A DNA stretch of 43,493 nucleotides from Sphingobacteriales bacterium (GTDB taxonomy: Bacteria > Bacteroidota > Bacteroidia > Sphingobacteriales > Sphingobacteriaceae): assembly GCA_004294495.1 (NCBI GenBank), contig REAS01000056.1, forward strand, positions 1 to 43,493, given 5' to 3'. Below the pieces are notes generated by a model. That model was not told the DNA's origin and made no database searches. It saw only the letters and a program-made list of their open reading frames with translations. The stretch's first letter is position 1, and each line of letters starts with the position of its first letter. Below, in pieces: positions 7,177 to 36,229 of the stretch. The position numbers and the translations under genes are program-made.

Positions 7177-7479
7177 AATGGAATGGTTAGCAAATAACGA
7201 GTGCTTTATTATATTTTTTTATTTTTTATACCGGTTTTAAAACAAGTTTCTGATAATTTCTACACAAATAACAAAGGCAAAAATCAAACTTACAAAAAAC
7301 TAATCCATAATGCTAAAATGTTTGAGAATCTAATATTTCTGTATTTAGAAAGATATATTTGGGGCAATTGTGCTTAAAAATTATAATAAGATTTTTTATT
7401 TTTTTTAGTTGATTATGCTGTGCCAATTTAATGTTTTGTATCCGTTTTTTAATGTTTTATTCCCATTTATAACATATTT

Positions 7480-7710
7480 ACCAGAGTTCGATTAAAAATA
7501 TTGTTTTCGTAATGATTAGGGCGTTAAAACACAATCGGAATTTATCCTGACAAAGGAAGGGCTATACCTTTTTTATATTTATTTATGCCACCCACCTCGA
7601 AACGGAGATTCGACGTAAATAAAGGATGAAGCTTCTGTCGTTAACGCAAAACACAGTTTACACTCTTAATAAACAGCGAGTTACTTTAAAATTAACAGTC
7701 GAGCTCAGGT
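7480..7710 (+). mobile_element. MITE-like palindromic repeat, copy 1 (degraded)
   Basis: About 231 bp bounded by imperfect terminal inverted repeats: ACCAGAGTTCGATTA at the left, and at the right a sequence whose complement reads ACCTGAGCTCGACTG. The interior contains AGGGCGTTAAAACAC near 7518 and GTCGTTAACGC ending at 7647, with a GATTCGACGTAAATAAAGGA block between. The same blocks in the same order occur in inverted orientation at 36005-36229. The left flank ATATTT and right flank AATATTT could be remnants of a target duplication. No transposase is encoded, so this is a non-autonomous repeat. Compared with the other copies, the central GC-rich hairpin is degraded. Confidence 0.6.
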
Positions 7711-7729
7711 AATATTTATTTAAAAAGTT

Positions 7730-17359: not shown

Positions 17360-17716
17360 TTAAACATTTTCTTTTTGAAACAAGGCAGGTATAGTTTTTA
17401 ATATTAGCTTTATGTCATTAGTAAAACTATGGTTTTTAGCGTATTGGTTGTCTAACAACAATCTTTCTTCCTCCGACATTTCACCTTTCCCTCTTTTTTC
17501 TACCTGCCAAAGGCCAGTAATACCTGCTGGTGCTAAAAATCGTAATGCGTATTTATCGGATGTGAGTTTTTCGGCCTCGTATAGCGGCAATGGTCTATTG
17601 CCTACAATACTCATATCGCCAATTAAAACATTCCAAAGTTGGGGCAGTTCATCAATACTTGTATTTCTAATAAAATTACCCACCCTTGTTACTCTAGGGT
17701 CGTTTTTGATTTTCAC
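17360..17716 (-). CDS. Sugar-phosphate transferase, C-terminal catalytic part (separated by frameshift)
   Basis: This frame encodes the second half of a bacterial sugar transferase (WbaP/WcaJ-type). It contains NDPRVTRVGNFIRNTSID, DELPQLWNV, GDMSIVGNRPLP and GITGLWQVEKRG, all hallmarks of the phospho-glycosyl-transferase core. The GTG at 17716 is only the first possible start. The same frame is open back to 17740 and reads NGAKESAFVKIKNDPR, which joins the N-terminal part encoded at 17694-18527 in the other frame. The real gene therefore runs from 18527 to 17360 with a one-base frame change between 17740 and 17694. As written, the enzyme would be broken. It could be a true mutation, a sequencing error or, least likely, recoding. 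The stop lies six bases before the TolC-like start. Confidence 0.8.
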   Translation of the reverse strand: MKIKNDPRVTRVGNFIRNTSIDELPQLWNVLIGDMSIVGNRPLPLYEAEKLTSDKYALRFLAPAGITGLWQVEKRGKGEMSEEERLLLDNQYAKNHSFTNDIKLILKTIPALFQKENV

Positions 17717-18527
17717 AAAAGCCGATTCTTTCGCACCATTCTATTTTATCAGCATATATAGGGTATTGGCAACGGGTACCCGCATTAGTACATGTTGTAC
17801 ATAAACCAATAGGTGTGGTTGATTTTTCTTCTACATCGGAGTTTGCATTATATTGATTTAAGTGTTTTAAATCTTTAAGTTTTTGATCGGCGTTTACAAA
17901 CATTGATCTAAATTTAAAAAACTTAAATACCCTATAGCCCGTACCTGCCCTAAGCGAGAAATAAAATGCAGGCCCATTAGATTCTAATTTAAGTGCCACA
18001 ATTACTATTAAAAACAATGGCGATAGCGCTAATAAACCAATTGAACTAAAAAATACATCAAATGCTCTTTTAACTAGTGGAACTTTATATTTTAGAAATT
18101 TAGCGGTTACACGGCTATTATTATTGATTTTTTGCCAGTTTTGTATCAAAAAATTTATTCTTAAAAATAAATCTTCGCTTTTATCGGGCAGTTTAGTGTA
18201 AACATCGGCAATGCCTGCTTTTAAGCATATTAGCCTAAGGTTATCGTTAACGTAATTAGAAACTAAAATAAATGGCAAATTTAAAAACTTATTTTGTAGC
18301 AATGTTTGGTAAAGTGCAATACCCATTGGAGACATAATTTCACCCACGCAAACAACGGCATCTATAGGTGTAGTACCTTTTGCCCAGTAAGCATGCATTT
18401 CAAATCCGTTTTTAAACGAAATGATTTCAAAATCATCGGTACTATAACTTTTAAAAAAATTTAAAATTTGGCTATTTGCATTAATTAACGCAATTGTTTT
18501 ATGCGTACTAGCATTGCTTGTGTCCAT
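17694..18527 (-). CDS. Pseudo-receiver fused to sugar-phosphate transferase, N-terminal part (frameshifted)
   Basis: Numbering is from the ATG at 18527; an upstream in-frame TTG at 18536 is possible but less likely. Residues about 10-125 form a receiver-like domain in which the phospho-acceptor aspartate position reads VCVGEIM, so it cannot be phosphorylated normally, while the lysine in YTKLP is kept. From about 150 the sugar-transferase part begins: KRAFDVFFSSIGLLALSP with a membrane hairpin, then ESNGPAFYFSLRAGTGYRVF and FKFRSM. A loop with four cysteines (C243, C246, C253, C265) precedes the break, after which the frame runs to a stop at 17694. The enzyme family transfers a sugar phosphate to undecaprenyl phosphate, the first step of repeat-unit synthesis. 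The catalytic remainder is in the adjacent frame (17360-17740). Confidence 0.82.
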   Translation of the reverse strand: MDTSNASTHKTIALINANSQILNFFKSYSTDDFEIISFKNGFEMHAYWAKGTTPIDAVVCVGEIMSPMGIALYQTLLQNKFLNLPFILVSNYVNDNLRLICLKAGIADVYTKLPDKSEDLFLRINFLIQNWQKINNNSRVTAKFLKYKVPLVKRAFDVFFSSIGLLALSPLFLIVIVALKLESNGPAFYFSLRAGTGYRVFKFFKFRSMFVNADQKLKDLKHLNQYNANSDVEEKSTTPIGLCTTCTNAGTRCQYPIYADKIEWCERIGFCENQKRP

Positions 18528-18541
18528 AACTAACAAAAAAA

Positions 18542-28903: not shown

Positions 28904-29012
28904 TGGGGGTTTTAACACGCTGTCCACTATATCTTTTTATCAATTGCGGTTTTCCCCCTTTGGGGGTCAGGGGGACCGCAATTGATAAAAAGGATGCCGT
29001 TTCCATCGTTAA
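28904..29012 (+). repeat. Dispersed palindromic repeat, copy 2 (core only)
   Basis: The interval carries TTTTAACACGC and CTATATCTTTTT, a GC-rich hairpin, AAAAAGGATGCCG and CATCGTTAACC. This is the block order found on the minus strand of 36005-36229. Here the outer ends of that element are absent. The central part (28933-28992) has perfect 18-bp arms, CTTTTTATCAATTGCGGT and its complement, around CCCCCTTTGGGGG. It lies between the phosphatase and rnhB genes; no T-run follows, so it is not a typical terminator, though so strong a hairpin could protect or shorten transcripts. Confidence 0.75.
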
Positions 29013-29033
29013 CCCTTAAACAAACAAACAAAA

Positions 29034-30930: not shown

Positions 30931-33900
30931 TTACAATACCACATTTACTATTCTACCTTTTACTACAATTACTTTTTTAGGCGTTTTACCATCAAAATAT
31001 TTAGTAACCAAATCGCTTTGTAAAACATAAAGCTCTACATCGGCAGCTTCCATAGTTAGGGGTAAGCTAATATTTGTTTTTGTTTTTCCGTTTATTGATA
31101 TGGGATAATTAAAATTATCTTCCACCAAATATTGCGGGTTAAACGTTGGGTACGTTGCGGTTGATACACTATTGGTATTACCTAATAATGCCCATAACTC
31201 TTCGCAAATGTGTGGTGCATAAGGCGATAGTACAATTACCATATCTTGCAAAATTTCTTTTTTGTCGCATTTTAGGTCGGTAAGTTCGTTTACGGCAATC
31301 ATAAAGCTAGATACCGATGTGTTAAACGAAAAACGCTCTACATCGTCTTCTACCTTTTTTATTATTTTGTGTAAGGCTTTTAATTCCGCTTTGGCGGGAT
31401 TTTGGTCGGATACCTTAAACGTAAAACTATCATCGTGAAAAAGCTTCCAAAATTTTCGCAGGAATTTAAAAACGCCTTCAATACCATTGGTGTTCCAAGG
31501 TTTGCTTTGCTCTAAAGGACCTAAAAACATTTCGTACATACGCAAAGTATCGGCACCATAACGGTCAACTAAATCATCGGGGTTTACTACGTTAAATTTA
31601 GATTTCGACATTTTTTCTACCTCGTGTCCGCAAATGTATTTTTCCTCACCCCGGCCCTCTCCAAAGGAGAGGGTGCTGTCACCCTCCTTACCGCTTTCAA
31701 AAATAAATTTTGCATTAGCGTACTCGTCTCTCGAGGCTTTAAATTTTTCTATATCTAAAATATCGTTTTCAACAATATTAACATCAACGTGGGTGTCAAT
31801 AGTTTTGTAATTGTTTTTTAAGCCAAACGATACAAAAGTATGGGTTGGTTTACCCTTATCGTCAACCAAACGATACACAAAACTACTCCTGCCTTGTATC
31901 ATCCCTTGGTTAATTAATTTCTTAAACGGCTCTTCCTCGGTTACATATCCTAAATCTTTTAAAAATTTGTTCCAAAAACGGCTGTACAGTAAATGCCCTG
32001 TGGCGTGTTCGCTGCCACCAATGTACAAATCAACATCTTGCCAATAAGCTATGGATTTTTTATCGGCGAAAGCCTGATTATTTTGGGCATCCATATACCT
32101 AAACCAGTACCAACTGCTGCCTGCCCAGCCTGGCATAGTGCTCAATTCGTAATCGTATTTATGTTTGTATTTCCAATCTTGGGCTCGGCCTAAAGGCGGT
32201 TCGCCACTTTGGGTTGGCAAGTATTTATCAACTTCGGGAAGCACTAAAGGCAATTCGCTTTCGTCTATTAAATAAGGCAAGCCATCTTTAAAATAAACGG
32301 GTACCGGTTCGCCCCAGTAGCGTTGGCGACCAAAAATAGCATCCCGCATACGGTAATTAATTTTTGCTTTGCCGGCATCTAGTTTTTCTAATTCGTCAAT
32401 AATTACGGTAGTAGCTTGCTTGTAAGTTAGGCCATTAATTATACCCGAGTTTATATATTTCCCTTCTTTGGTTGGGTCGGCTTGGGTATCAATTTGTTGC
32501 GCATCTAAAATGGGTATAATGGGCAAATTAAAATGTTGGGCAAACAAATAATCGCGTTGGTCGCCACTGGGTACGGCCATAACCGCCCCTGTACCGTAAC
32601 CAGCAAGCACATAATCGGCTATCCAAACGGGTACTTGCGCACCGTTAATGGGGTTGGTAACGTAACTGCCGGTAAACGCCCCCGATACGGTTTTTACATC
32701 GGCCATACGGTCTAACTCGCTTTTCTTTTTGGTTTGCGCAATGTAGGCATCAATACTTTCTTTTTGTTGGGGTGTGGTTAGCTGTGCAACCAATTCGTGT
32801 TCGGGTGCAATTGCCAAGTAGGTTACGCCGTAAAGGGTATCAACACGGGTGGTGAAAACAGAAATCTCAATCCCCCCAGCCCCCGAAGGGGGGGTATCAA
32901 CGTTAATTTCACCGTGGACATTTGCGTTGGCATCCCCCCTTTGGGGGTTAGGGGGATTGGCACTCCCCCCTTCGGGGGGCTGGGGGGGATTTAGGGTATT
33001 AAGCTCTCTTTCAATTTCCGATAAAACTTTATCAATATTATCAATTACTTCTTGGTTAGTAAAACGGATAACTTTAAAGCCAACTTGGTTTAAAATTTTA
33101 GTTCTTTCGGCATCATATTCTAGCTGAGAATTATGTATTTCGCCATCAACTTCTACAACTAAACCTTTTGATATGCATACAAAGTCTACAATATAATTAT
33201 CTATTAAATGTTGTTGTCTAAATTTAAATTCTAAAGCTTTCGATTTAAGTCGCAACCATAAAATATTTTCGGCGTTAGTTGGCGTTTTTCTCATTTCTTT
33301 TGCTTTATCCAATAAGATATGAGAATAATTGCCGCCTGTCAAATAGCGGGGTTTGTTCCCCCCAGCCCCCAAAGGGGGGGTATCAACGTTAATATTACCG
33401 AGCATATTTGCGTTGGCAGTCCCCCCTTTGGGGGCTAGGGGGAATTTCACCATTGCCCCAACGCTTTTACCAATCCAATTGCGTTGTATTTCTTTTAAAG
33501 GTTCGGGCCAATCAATTGTGTTTAGGCCTTGCAGTAAACGTTCGGCGTAAGCGGTAATACGCATACTCCACTGCATCATTTTCTTTTGTTCAACAGGGTG
33601 GCCGCCACGTTCGCTAAAGCCTTCCTTTATTTCGTCATTTGCTAAAACTGTTCCCAAAACAGGACACCAATTTACGGTGCTTTCTTTTAAAAATGTTAAG
33701 CGATATTTTAGGAGTTCGGCTTCTTTTTCAAGATGGTTCATTGTACTCCAATCGCTAGGTTGCAGGTTTTGTACGTCATCATCGCAAACGGCTTTAATTT
33801 CGCGGGTGCCTACGGTTTCTAGTTTTAAAACTAGGGTGCTAATGGGCTCGGCCTTATCGGTCTCGAGGTTGTACCACGAGTTGAAAATTTGCATAAAAAT

Positions 33901-34311
33901 CCACTGCGTCCATTTATAATAATCGGCATTGCTGGTGCGTACCTCGCGGCTCCAATCAAACGAAAAACCCAAATTATCAAGTTGTTGGCGGTATCGGGCA
34001 ATATTTGCTTCGGTGGTTATGGCTGGGTGCTGACCAGTTTGTATGGCATATTGCTCGGCTGGTAAGCCAAAAGAATCGTAACCCATTGGGTGCAACACAT
34101 TAAAGCCTTTAATACGCTTGTATCTTGCAAAAATATCGGAAGCAATATAACCTAGCGGATGCCCAACGTGTAAACCCGCACCCGATGGGTAAGGAAACAT
34201 ATCTAACACATAATATTTAGGTTTGGTGGTATCGGTAGCTACTTTAAAGGTTTGGTTTGTAGCCCAATATTGTTGCCACTTTTGCTCTATGCTTTTAAAT
34301 TGATAATCCAT
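30931..34311 (-). CDS. leuS: Leucyl-tRNA synthetase with two in-frame repeat insertions, one carrying a DUF559 nuclease domain
   Basis: The frame has 1126 codons, whereas Bacteroidota LeuRS is about 920-950. The synthetase is otherwise complete. It has the HIGH-type HVGHPLG (48-54), CP1 editing domain with threonine-rich TTRVDT (487-492) and editing aspartate D584 in PSGDQRD, WYWFRYMD, KMSKS (900-904), and the C-terminal anticodon-binding region. Residues about 291-482 interrupt the first CP1 hairpin, between GKSVGAMVKFP and EISVFTTR. This insert consists of repeat-encoded peptide, a DUF559 domain (333-438), then repeat-encoded peptide again. A second insert of 16 residues (875-890) precedes KYICGHEVEKMSKS. 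Both are in frame without stops. It charges tRNA-Leu with leucine; since the gene is normally essential, the protein presumably still works. Confidence 0.95.
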   Translation of the reverse strand: MDYQFKSIEQKWQQYWATNQTFKVATDTTKPKYYVLDMFPYPSGAGLHVGHPLGYIASDIFARYKRIKGFNVLHPMGYDSFGLPAEQYAIQTGQHPAITTEANIARYRQQLDNLGFSFDWSREVRTSNADYYKWTQWIFMQIFNSWYNLETDKAEPISTLVLKLETVGTREIKAVCDDDVQNLQPSDWSTMNHLEKEAELLKYRLTFLKESTVNWCPVLGTVLANDEIKEGFSERGGHPVEQKKMMQWSMRITAYAERLLQGLNTIDWPEPLKEIQRNWIGKSVGAMVKFPLAPKGGTANANMLGNINVDTPPLGAGGNKPRYLTGGNYSHILLDKAKEMRKTPTNAENILWLRLKSKALEFKFRQQHLIDNYIVDFVCISKGLVVEVDGEIHNSQLEYDAERTKILNQVGFKVIRFTNQEVIDNIDKVLSEIERELNTLNPPQPPEGGSANPPNPQRGDANANVHGEINVDTPPSGAGGIEISVFTTRVDTLYGVTYLAIAPEHELVAQLTTPQQKESIDAYIAQTKKKSELDRMADVKTVSGAFTGSYVTNPINGAQVPVWIADYVLAGYGTGAVMAVPSGDQRDYLFAQHFNLPIIPILDAQQIDTQADPTKEGKYINSGIINGLTYKQATTVIIDELEKLDAGKAKINYRMRDAIFGRQRYWGEPVPVYFKDGLPYLIDESELPLVLPEVDKYLPTQSGEPPLGRAQDWKYKHKYDYELSTMPGWAGSSWYWFRYMDAQNNQAFADKKSIAYWQDVDLYIGGSEHATGHLLYSRFWNKFLKDLGYVTEEEPFKKLINQGMIQGRSSFVYRLVDDKGKPTHTFVSFGLKNNYKTIDTHVDVNIVENDILDIEKFKASRDEYANAKFIFESGKEGDSTLSFGEGRGEEKYICGHEVEKMSKSKFNVVNPDDLVDRYGADTLRMYEMFLGPLEQSKPWNTNGIEGVFKFLRKFWKLFHDDSFTFKVSDQNPAKAELKALHKIIKKVEDDVERFSFNTSVSSFMIAVNELTDLKCDKKEILQDMVIVLSPYAPHICEELWALLGNTNSVSTATYPTFNPQYLVEDNFNYPISINGKTKTNISLPLTMEAADVELYVLQSDLVTKYFDGKTPKKVIVVKGRIVNVVL
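31642..31689 (-). repeat. 48-bp palindromic repeat inserted in frame in leuS before KMSKS
   Basis: The segment contains the perfect palindromic hairpin CCCTCTCCAAAGGAGAGGG apart from its central three bases (31655-31673). It is preceded by CCTCACCCCGG and followed by CACCCTCC-type sequence, the general pattern of CCTCACCC...GGAGAGGG intergenic repeats. It encodes 16 residues of leuS (GDSTLSFGEGRGEE region) that have no counterpart between the ESG and KYICG segments of usual Bacteroidota LeuRS. Its length is a multiple of three. Confidence 0.72.
32872..32957. repeat. Direct repeat copy A of the leuS palindromic element
   Basis: It starts CCCCCCAGCCCCCGAAGGGG and ends CCCCCCTTTGGGGGTTAGGG, with core ATCAACGTTAATTTCACCGT. 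Its sequence matches copy B at most positions. In leuS it encodes residues about 454-480. Confidence 0.88.
32998..33315 (-). other. DUF559 (PD-(D/E)XK, Vsr-like) nuclease domain embedded in LeuRS
   Basis: Residues about 333-438 of LeuRS match the DUF559 family. There is an N-terminal helix KAKEMRKTPTNAENILW, then FKFRQQHLIDNYIVDFVC, LVVEVDGEIH, and GFKVIRFTNQEV at the C-terminus. Putative catalytic residues D376, E387, D389 and H393 are present, so the nuclease may be active. DUF559 proteins usually exist as free 110-130-residue polypeptides and are related to very-short-patch repair endonucleases. Here there is no separate stop, and translation continues into the LeuRS editing domain. An internal ATG (codon 340) exists, but independent expression cannot be judged. 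Confidence 0.85.
33358..33444. repeat. Direct repeat copy B of the leuS palindromic element
   Basis: It starts CCCCCCAGCCCCCAAAGGGG and ends with CCCCCCTTTGGGGGCTAGGG, with core ATCAACGTTAATATTACCGA. It encodes LeuRS residues about 290-318 and lies 486 bp from copy A in the same orientation and reading frame. Confidence 0.88.
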
Positions 34312-36004: not shown

Positions 36005-36229
36005 ACCCGAGTTCGATTATTAAAATACAGTATAATTCACTGTAAATCAATGTTATTTACGAGTTTGAAGCGTTAACGACGGTAGCGGCATCCTTTTTTT
36101 ACGCCGAATCTCTCCCTTCGGGGGGCGGGGGGATAGACAAATAAAAAAAGATATAGCGTACGGCGTGTTAAAACGCCCAAATCATAATCAAAACTATAAT
36201 AAACAATGTTTTATTGATAGAAATCAGGT
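36005..36229 (-). mobile_element. MITE-like palindromic repeat, copy 3
   Basis: About 225 bp. One end reads ACCCGAGTTCGATTA on the plus strand. The other, read on the minus strand, is the more degenerate ACCTGATTTCTATCA. Reading the minus strand, the interior has GGGCGTTTTAACACGC, CTATATCTTTTTTT, a CCCCCCGCCCCCCGAAGGG hairpin, GATTCGGCGTAAAAAAAGGA, TGCCGCTACCGTCGTTAACG and finally ATCGAACTCGGGTTAATAT. Copy 1 (7480-7710) has the same order of blocks; copy 2 (28904-29012) has the interior only. No transposase is encoded. Confidence 0.72.

Follow-up and report, generated by a model that had tools for sequence, protein, structure and literature searches.

A MITE family with IS982-type ends around a palindromic Flavo-1 core in a Sphingobacteriales genome

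We found that two sites in a 43,493-nucleotide stretch of DNA from a Sphingobacteriales bacterium (contig REAS01000056.1; hereafter, the window) are copies of one MITE family. The best explanation, to which we give a probability of roughly 0.9, is that the MITE consists of IS982-type ends joined by arms to a palindromic Flavo-1 repeat, that it carries no transposase, and that an IS982 element moves it in trans. This explanation names the parent of the repeat family. The MITE family, a new one, is well supported; IS982-derived MITEs as such are already known.

A preliminary description of the window had placed one copy on the plus strand and the other on the minus strand, with coordinates that proved correct: four TIR-like 15-mers lie at exactly the ends given in Table 1, and the internal blocks follow the order described in both copies. 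When we searched the window for ACCTGAGTTCGATTA with up to three mismatches, we obtained four sites (starting at 7480, 7696, 36005, and 36215), which coincide with the termini of the two copies. Shuffled windows gave a mean of 0.70 sites, and four sites were reached in 1 of 100 shuffles. With copy 1 as the query, copy 2 was retrieved at an E value of 5.8e-13. Copy 1 shares 83% identity with the MITE consensus in ungapped columns, plus 47 gap columns, compared to 92% for copy 2; the suggestion that several ages are represented is therefore fair for these two copies. The core of copy 1 gave no Rfam Flavo-1 match even at E ≤ 1. The hexamer ATATTT had been described on both sides of copy 1 as a decayed target duplication. 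It is present on both sides, with the right-hand one offset by an extra A at position 7711; however, the duplication in this family is 5 bp long, and copy 1 matches at only three of the five bases. The corresponding 5-mers of copy 2, TTATA and TAATA, match at four of five. A third site, at 28905 to 29026, belongs to the same core family but has no recognizable TIRs, and thus does not count as a further copy of the MITE. As previously noted, there is no transposase in sight: among the 33 window open reading frames scanned (of 46 with at least 90 amino acids), none matched a transposase family.

Table 1. Coordinates of the MITE copies, their parts, and related repeats in the window
Feature	Position	Strand	Remarks
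MITE copy 1	7480..7710	+	231 bp; more diverged of the two window copies
Left TIR of copy 1	7480..7494	+	1 mismatch to ACCTGAGTTCGATTA
Right TIR of copy 1	7696..7710	-	3 mismatches to ACCTGAGTTCGATTA
Flavo-1-like core of copy 1	7519..7647	+	GGGCGTT...GTCGTTAACGC
ATATTT flanking copy 1 on the left	7474..7479	.	May belong to a decayed target duplication; the counterpart on the right (7712-7717) is shifted by one base
MITE copy 2	36005..36229	-	225 bp; 92% identity to consensus (ungapped columns)
TIR of copy 2	36005..36019	+	1 mismatch to ACCTGAGTTCGATTA
Other TIR of copy 2	36215..36229	-	3 mismatches to ACCTGAGTTCGATTA
Flavo-1 (RF01705) match within copy 2	36065..36174	+	44.1 bits; gathering score 42
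Naked Flavo-1 (RF01705), without IS982 ends	28905..29026	-	Match 28909-29026, 49.6 bits; gathering score 42
G+C palindrome repeat family	28952-28982, 32933-32994, 33420-33450, 36110-36140		In the window

The genome from which the window comes (2.38 Mb in 192 contigs, 92% complete) contains many more copies. Copy 1 and copy 2 each matched at least 57 pieces when used as genome queries, with some places represented by several pieces. The genome searches scored 40 of 119 candidates for copy 1, 40 of 145 for copy 2, and 150 of 552 for Flavo-1; therefore, the copy numbers reported here are lower bounds. The 15-mer end occurs in the genome 161 times at ≤3 mismatches (79 forward, 82 reverse), compared to 32 times for a reversed control pattern (11 and 21); the places listed are the first 100 of the 161. 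Our starting list of 57 TIR pairs included overlapping and spurious ones, which we filtered by allowing a single pair at each locus and by requiring a TAACG core and no more than five TIR mismatches in total. This resulted in a set of 39 aligned copies; copy 1 of the window fell outside this set under the one-per-locus rule, and we compared it to the consensus in a separate step. The 39 copies measure 167 to 287 bp (211 to 227 bp in 28 of them), which makes this a short element (less than approximately 300 bp) without a transposase gene. Each consists of two inverted ACCTGAGTTCGATTA ends, short arms, and the palindromic Flavo-1 repeat in the middle. Counted from the Rfam match and with the TIR included, the arms are 44 or 55 bp long on one side and approximately 58 to 60 bp on the other. 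Two of the aligned copies share only 51% and 71% identity with the consensus and, given this divergence, may not be members of the family. As single-stranded DNA, the consensus folds with its TIRs paired (-34.8 kcal/mol, z -4.65).

Just outside the ends, we detected a 5-bp direct repeat that is perfect in 18 of the 39 copies and matches at four or more bases in 31, with the other eight matching at fewer than four. When left and right flanks were paired by permutation (20,000 permutations), the maxima were 9 perfect repeats and 19 with at least four matching bases. Shifting the boundary by one base either way left no perfect repeats and only three and one at four or more bases; over shifts of one to four bases, the ranges were 0 to 2 and 0 to 3, respectively. 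Repeat lengths of 3, 4, and 6 to 9 bp fit at most one of the 39 copies, and a length of 2 bp fits 13. The targets are A+T-rich, most commonly TAATA and TTATA (also TATTA and similar sequences). Because identity to the consensus and duplication quality are uncorrelated across the 39 copies (Spearman 0.04), no simple decay clock is visible.

Copy 1 is absent from the syntenic site of a congener, G005. Both of its flanks are syntenic there (85% and 89% identity), separated by 106 bp as opposed to 359 bp in the window. Free pairwise alignment scattered the short sequence of G005 over the element; therefore, we used a test based on trial deletions (n = 3,840). Exact removal of 7480 to 7710 scored 254 against G005, where the best deletion scored 255 and the mean was 208. 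The junction is not base-perfect, given that nearby deletions of 230 to 242 bp also score 253 to 255 and that the intergenic DNA has diverged. Three relatives share the gene that lies on one side of copy 2, but they are not syntenic on the other; the 1.5-kb stretches there lack a TIR pair, with a single TIR in one of them. The naked Flavo-1 lies upstream of rnhB, and we found no match to it in the stretches around the same gene from G005 and G015. The TIRs, the 5-bp target duplication, and the congener site without the element support the earlier view of a non-autonomous, MITE-like family with conserved ends.

Comparison of the ends with insertion sequence termini, proposed in the preliminary description as a way to find the parent transposase, identified a parent of the IS982 family. 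We used the end sequence to search 18 genomes of the genus. The complete genome G013 contains seven TIR pairs approximately 1 kb apart, which are insertion sequences of 1008 and 1034 bp with perfect TIRs. With one copy in G004 and one in G003 (where the reading frame is split), full copies with both ends were found in three congeners and range from 1008 to 1034 bp. The transposases of both lengths match the NCBIfam IS982 model NF033520 (4.6e-80 and 3.4e-81). The full IS982 copies have the same ACCTGAGTTCGATTA TIRs as the MITE, and all nine are flanked by an exact 5-bp duplication (TATTA, TAATA, TACTA, TATGA, or TATCA), a count from which two partnerless single ends were left out. Six contigs of the genome that the window comes from break off within one TIR-initial stretch of 95 to 97 bp (100% identical), and two contigs break off within another stretch with a TIR, which encodes the C-terminal 26 transposase residues (69% identical). 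A complete IS982 transposase gene was not found among the 192 contigs of this assembly, only the 26-residue ends. Contig breaks at the ends of an insertion sequence are the pattern expected of a multicopy element in a short-read assembly, from which we infer an intact source gene; the left ends on six contigs and the right ends on two probably belong to the same IS982.

The same ends occur beyond the genus. We fetched 80 of at least 579 named IS982 loci, and 73 of these have a TIR pair 850 to 1300 bp apart with no more than eight mismatches in total, compared to seven for the reversed control. Both ends are perfect in 12 of the 80 loci, for example in Pedobacter, Kordia, Galbibacter, and Zobellia. 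A looser criterion (≤5 mismatches per end) gave 75 of 80, with 49 of 80 for the reversed control, and was dropped in favor of the stricter count. Exact flanking repeats in the 64 testable loci were 5 bp long in 20, 7 bp in 11, and 6 bp in 5. By eye, ACCTGAG ends tend to have 5-bp repeats and ACGTGAG ends more often have 7-bp repeats. The combination of CCTGAG ends with an A+T-rich 5-bp duplication also led us to consider an IS1380-family parent, but a genome search with PF13701 at E ≤ 0.001 found nothing. In viral contigs, the IS982 TIR was present once in each of 35 stretches and never twice in one.

In the mechanism that we propose, the IS982 transposase, a DDE-type enzyme, would recognize the TIRs in trans, and the MITE would insert at A+T-rich 5-bp targets of the TAATA, TTATA, and TATTA type. 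The Flavo-1 core would be cargo, a separate palindromic repeat that came to be enclosed by IS982 ends and multiplied with them, and this capture would have taken place in a lineage represented by four of the 18 genus genomes searched. A function of the core would not be needed for transposition, and an RNA function is probably absent. The hairpin might aid transposition, perhaps by holding the two ends close to each other, but this is speculative.

The core of the MITE is the Rfam "sRNA" family Flavo-1 (RF01705), an identity that the preliminary description overlooked. We listed at least 106 Flavo-1 matches in the genome at E ≤ 0.001, of which 89 score above the gathering score. Among the 106, an IS982 end (≤4 mismatches) stands at fixed spacing on both sides of 29 matches, on one side of 15, and on neither side of 62. 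Shuffled ends (n = 300) gave on average 0.06 two-sided and 0.35 one-sided matches; the largest values in any shuffle were 17 and 14, respectively, and the shuffle with the largest count presumably came close to the real TIR. All but one of the 44 TIR-associated cores among those listed are of the subtype GGGCGTT..ACACGC, whereas IS982 ends are absent from all 25 cores of a GTCGGGC-like subtype, which suggests few captures in this lineage, perhaps one. After excluding 20 of the 106 matches that lie too near the end of the available stretch, 83 of 86 are intergenic. The open reading frames used for this placement were called mechanically, and counting orientation requires neighbors on both sides (n = 51). 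Relative to their neighboring frames, these 51 show no preferred orientation (16 ++, 16 --, 10 +-, and 9 -+), which disfavors a role in cis for a Flavo-1 RNA.

Could the family instead be a conserved RNA gene, with the ends merely its surroundings? The preliminary description had named a conserved RNA gene as the explanation that would overturn its own, and part of this is borne out: the core exceeds the RF01705 gathering score at two window sites and at 89 of the 106 listed genome places, and Weinberg et al. (2010) rated Flavo-1 "y," meaning probably a biological RNA, and not cis-regulatory, in the portions of that report available (PMC2864571). The naked window copy also folds as RNA far better than shuffles on both strands (z -6.0 and -5.3). 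Conservation per 10 columns of the MITE alignment is 0.79 to 0.95 in the core, somewhat above the arms (0.75 to 0.86), though not above the TIRs (0.90 to 0.95). The good fold of the naked copy and the slight excess of core over arm conservation count against a view of Flavo-1 as a pure passenger. However, shuffled sequences fold about as well as the RNA of copy 2 (z -0.64 and -0.54; for copy 1, z -2.73 and -1.21), and an RNA gene leaves unexplained the TIRs and target duplications, which fall outside the Rfam model, the random orientation, and the absence of copy 1 from the syntenic congener. In Flavobacterium psychrophilum, Flavo-1 hits lie sense or antisense to transcribed regions indistinctly, and many lie in none, as far as the accessible text reports (PMC9723704). 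We therefore regard an RNA gene as a very improbable explanation of these copies. Equally improbable is that REP-like palindromes were spread by another enzyme and that the IS982 ends are incidental; the RAYT/Y1 transposase is an example of an enzyme that spreads such palindromes. The 62 listed Flavo-1 matches without an IS982 end at fixed spacing would leave room for another spreader, but the 5-bp repeat lies exactly outside the TIR, which indicates a transposase acting at those ends and largely excludes this route for the TIR-bearing copies.

An alternative within the IS982 family itself is that the MITE is the remnant of a single IS982 element after internal deletion, rather than IS982 ends around an unrelated palindrome. 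Such an origin has been proposed for the Cardinium MITE from ISCca4, according to the sections of the source at hand (PMC9769881), and a parent insertion sequence with the MITE arms could exist unassembled in the genome. The left end of the genome's insertion sequence, however, resembles the MITE copies over only 21 to 22 bp, and because the similarity stops there, the MITE did not arise from that element by a simple internal deletion. The ends of the insertion sequences in G013 likewise show no arm similarity by eye. In addition, the palindromic repeats found between IS982 ends vary among species of the genus. G001 contains four elements with IS982 ends and a common core of GGGCTAAAGCCC-type palindromes, three of them 92 to 95% alike. 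In G002, one element and its decayed relative (L400) carry a TTGCGAGG..GAAGCAATC palindrome between IS982 ends; the same palindrome also occurs at two loci (L353 and L356) without recognizable IS982 ends (≥5 mismatches), and a further place in G002 resembles an old copy whose ends have decayed. These other-core stretches of G001 and G002 matched no Rfam family at the gathering score, with sub-threshold miRNA matches in L400 and L188. Considering these observations together, we find an internal-deletion remnant unlikely and favor IS982 ends that enclosed a Flavo-1 repeat. The combination of the same ends and different palindromic cores in sister species offers a small system for asking why the ends of an insertion sequence keep capturing hairpins.

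Some Flavo-1 repeats are themselves interrupted by another multicopy element. Eight Flavo-1 copies in the genome are broken at the same base, after (A/G)TCGTTAAC, and the interrupting sequence is the identical end of this element, which runs off the contigs. In two contigs, a different multicopy end abuts CGCTTTAAAAT-like MITE arms and may be the other end of the interrupting element. AC is found at both junctions of these two candidate ends, with no duplication beyond these two bases, and the left end holds GTCGTTAA, as does its target. Our guess is that the element is of the IS110 or IS200/IS605 type. When we looked for an IS110 element at the GTTAAC of Flavo-1, NF033542 matched in 11 of the 18 genus genomes, and the GTTAAC ends fit none of the loci listed. 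Neither end of the GTTAAC element was found in the 35 viral stretches. A Flavo-1-like stretch in G015 (approximately positions 1232 to 1250 of locus L291) ends in GGATGTTAACATAGAATACGC, including 19 terminal bases of the second multicopy end of the window's genome, and may be a scar of the element to which that end belongs.

In the window, G+C palindromes are nested inside Flavo-1, and Flavo-1 inside IS982 ends. The TCCCCC..GGGGG palindrome of the Flavo-1 apical loop belongs to the same repeat family as the palindromes of an insert in the leucyl-tRNA synthetase gene of the window (30931 to 34311, minus strand), with 65 to 87% identity. This insert is in frame, approximately 190 residues long, and contains a DUF559 domain (PF04480, 2.8e-35); it is flanked by two 77-nucleotide direct repeats (32871 to 32947 and 33357 to 33433, 87% identical) that are rich in TCCCCC..GGGGG palindromes. 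Among relatives, the insert is missing from G016, where the open frame has 923 residues, in frame in G015 in the part examined, and present in G005, where the frame is split in two. Elsewhere in the window (17360 to 18536, minus strand), a bacterial sugar transferase gene (PF02397) is split over two overlapping open reading frames that cover profile positions 1 to 65 and 69 to 178, which reflects either a frameshift, a pseudogene, or an assembly error.

A broader interpretation, which we offer tentatively and consider somewhat less probable than its opposite, is that Flavo-1 is not an RNA gene at all and instead is a mobile palindromic DNA repeat. It would have been captured by IS982 ends here, as other palindromes were in sister species, would hold further palindromes in its apical loop, and would provide, in GTTAAC, a fixed landing site for a second mobile element. 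If true, Flavo-1 would be a nested ecosystem of DNA hairpins. The present data suggest that many annotated Flavo-1 copies are hitchhiking mobile DNA, and such copies would give a concrete reason why this Rfam sRNA family still lacks a function: none is given in the available portions of the three sources consulted (PMC2864571, PMC9723704, PMC9029176). Caution would also be warranted for sRNA censuses, in which, by the excerpted account, Flavo-1 ranks among the most abundant families (PMC9029176). Among the open-licence papers listed, we recognized none that links Flavo-1 with MITEs or IS982.

Several known systems resemble parts of this one. Cardinium is, like the host of the present MITE, a member of the Bacteroidota. 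Its MITE, MITECca01, is thought to derive from ISCca4, and the two MITEs are alike in their IS982-family parent, similar size, high copy number, and lack of a transposase, as far as the consulted sections of the report extend (PMC9769881). They differ in that MITECca01 retains short stretches of its parent insertion sequence, whereas the likeness of our MITE to the left end of the genome's insertion sequence stops at approximately 22 bp, and in that those sections name no Rfam family for the MITECca01 core, whereas the core here is Flavo-1. For Flavo-1 as described by Weinberg et al. (RF01705; PMC2864571, partial text), both the copy 2 core and the site at 28905 to 29026 exceed the gathering score; Rfam models the core alone, as an sRNA, whereas 44 of the 106 matches listed here adjoin IS982 ends and their orientation is random. 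The MITEs of Porphyromonas gingivalis (BrickBuilt and MITE464/PgRS) also combine TIRs common to a type of insertion sequence with unrelated repetitive cores; according to the passages available, those have IS5-family ends and tandem (minisatellite) repeats, in contrast to the IS982-family ends and palindromic cores found here (PMC4596501). Finally, QMITE2 of Coxiella burnetii holds a REP that IS1111 uses as a target, in the part of the source we cite (PMC10969869). QMITE2 differs from the present MITE in the MITE, the palindrome, and the host, but in both cases a palindrome carried by a MITE is targeted by a second, site-specific element, as with the element at GTTAAC in Flavo-1.
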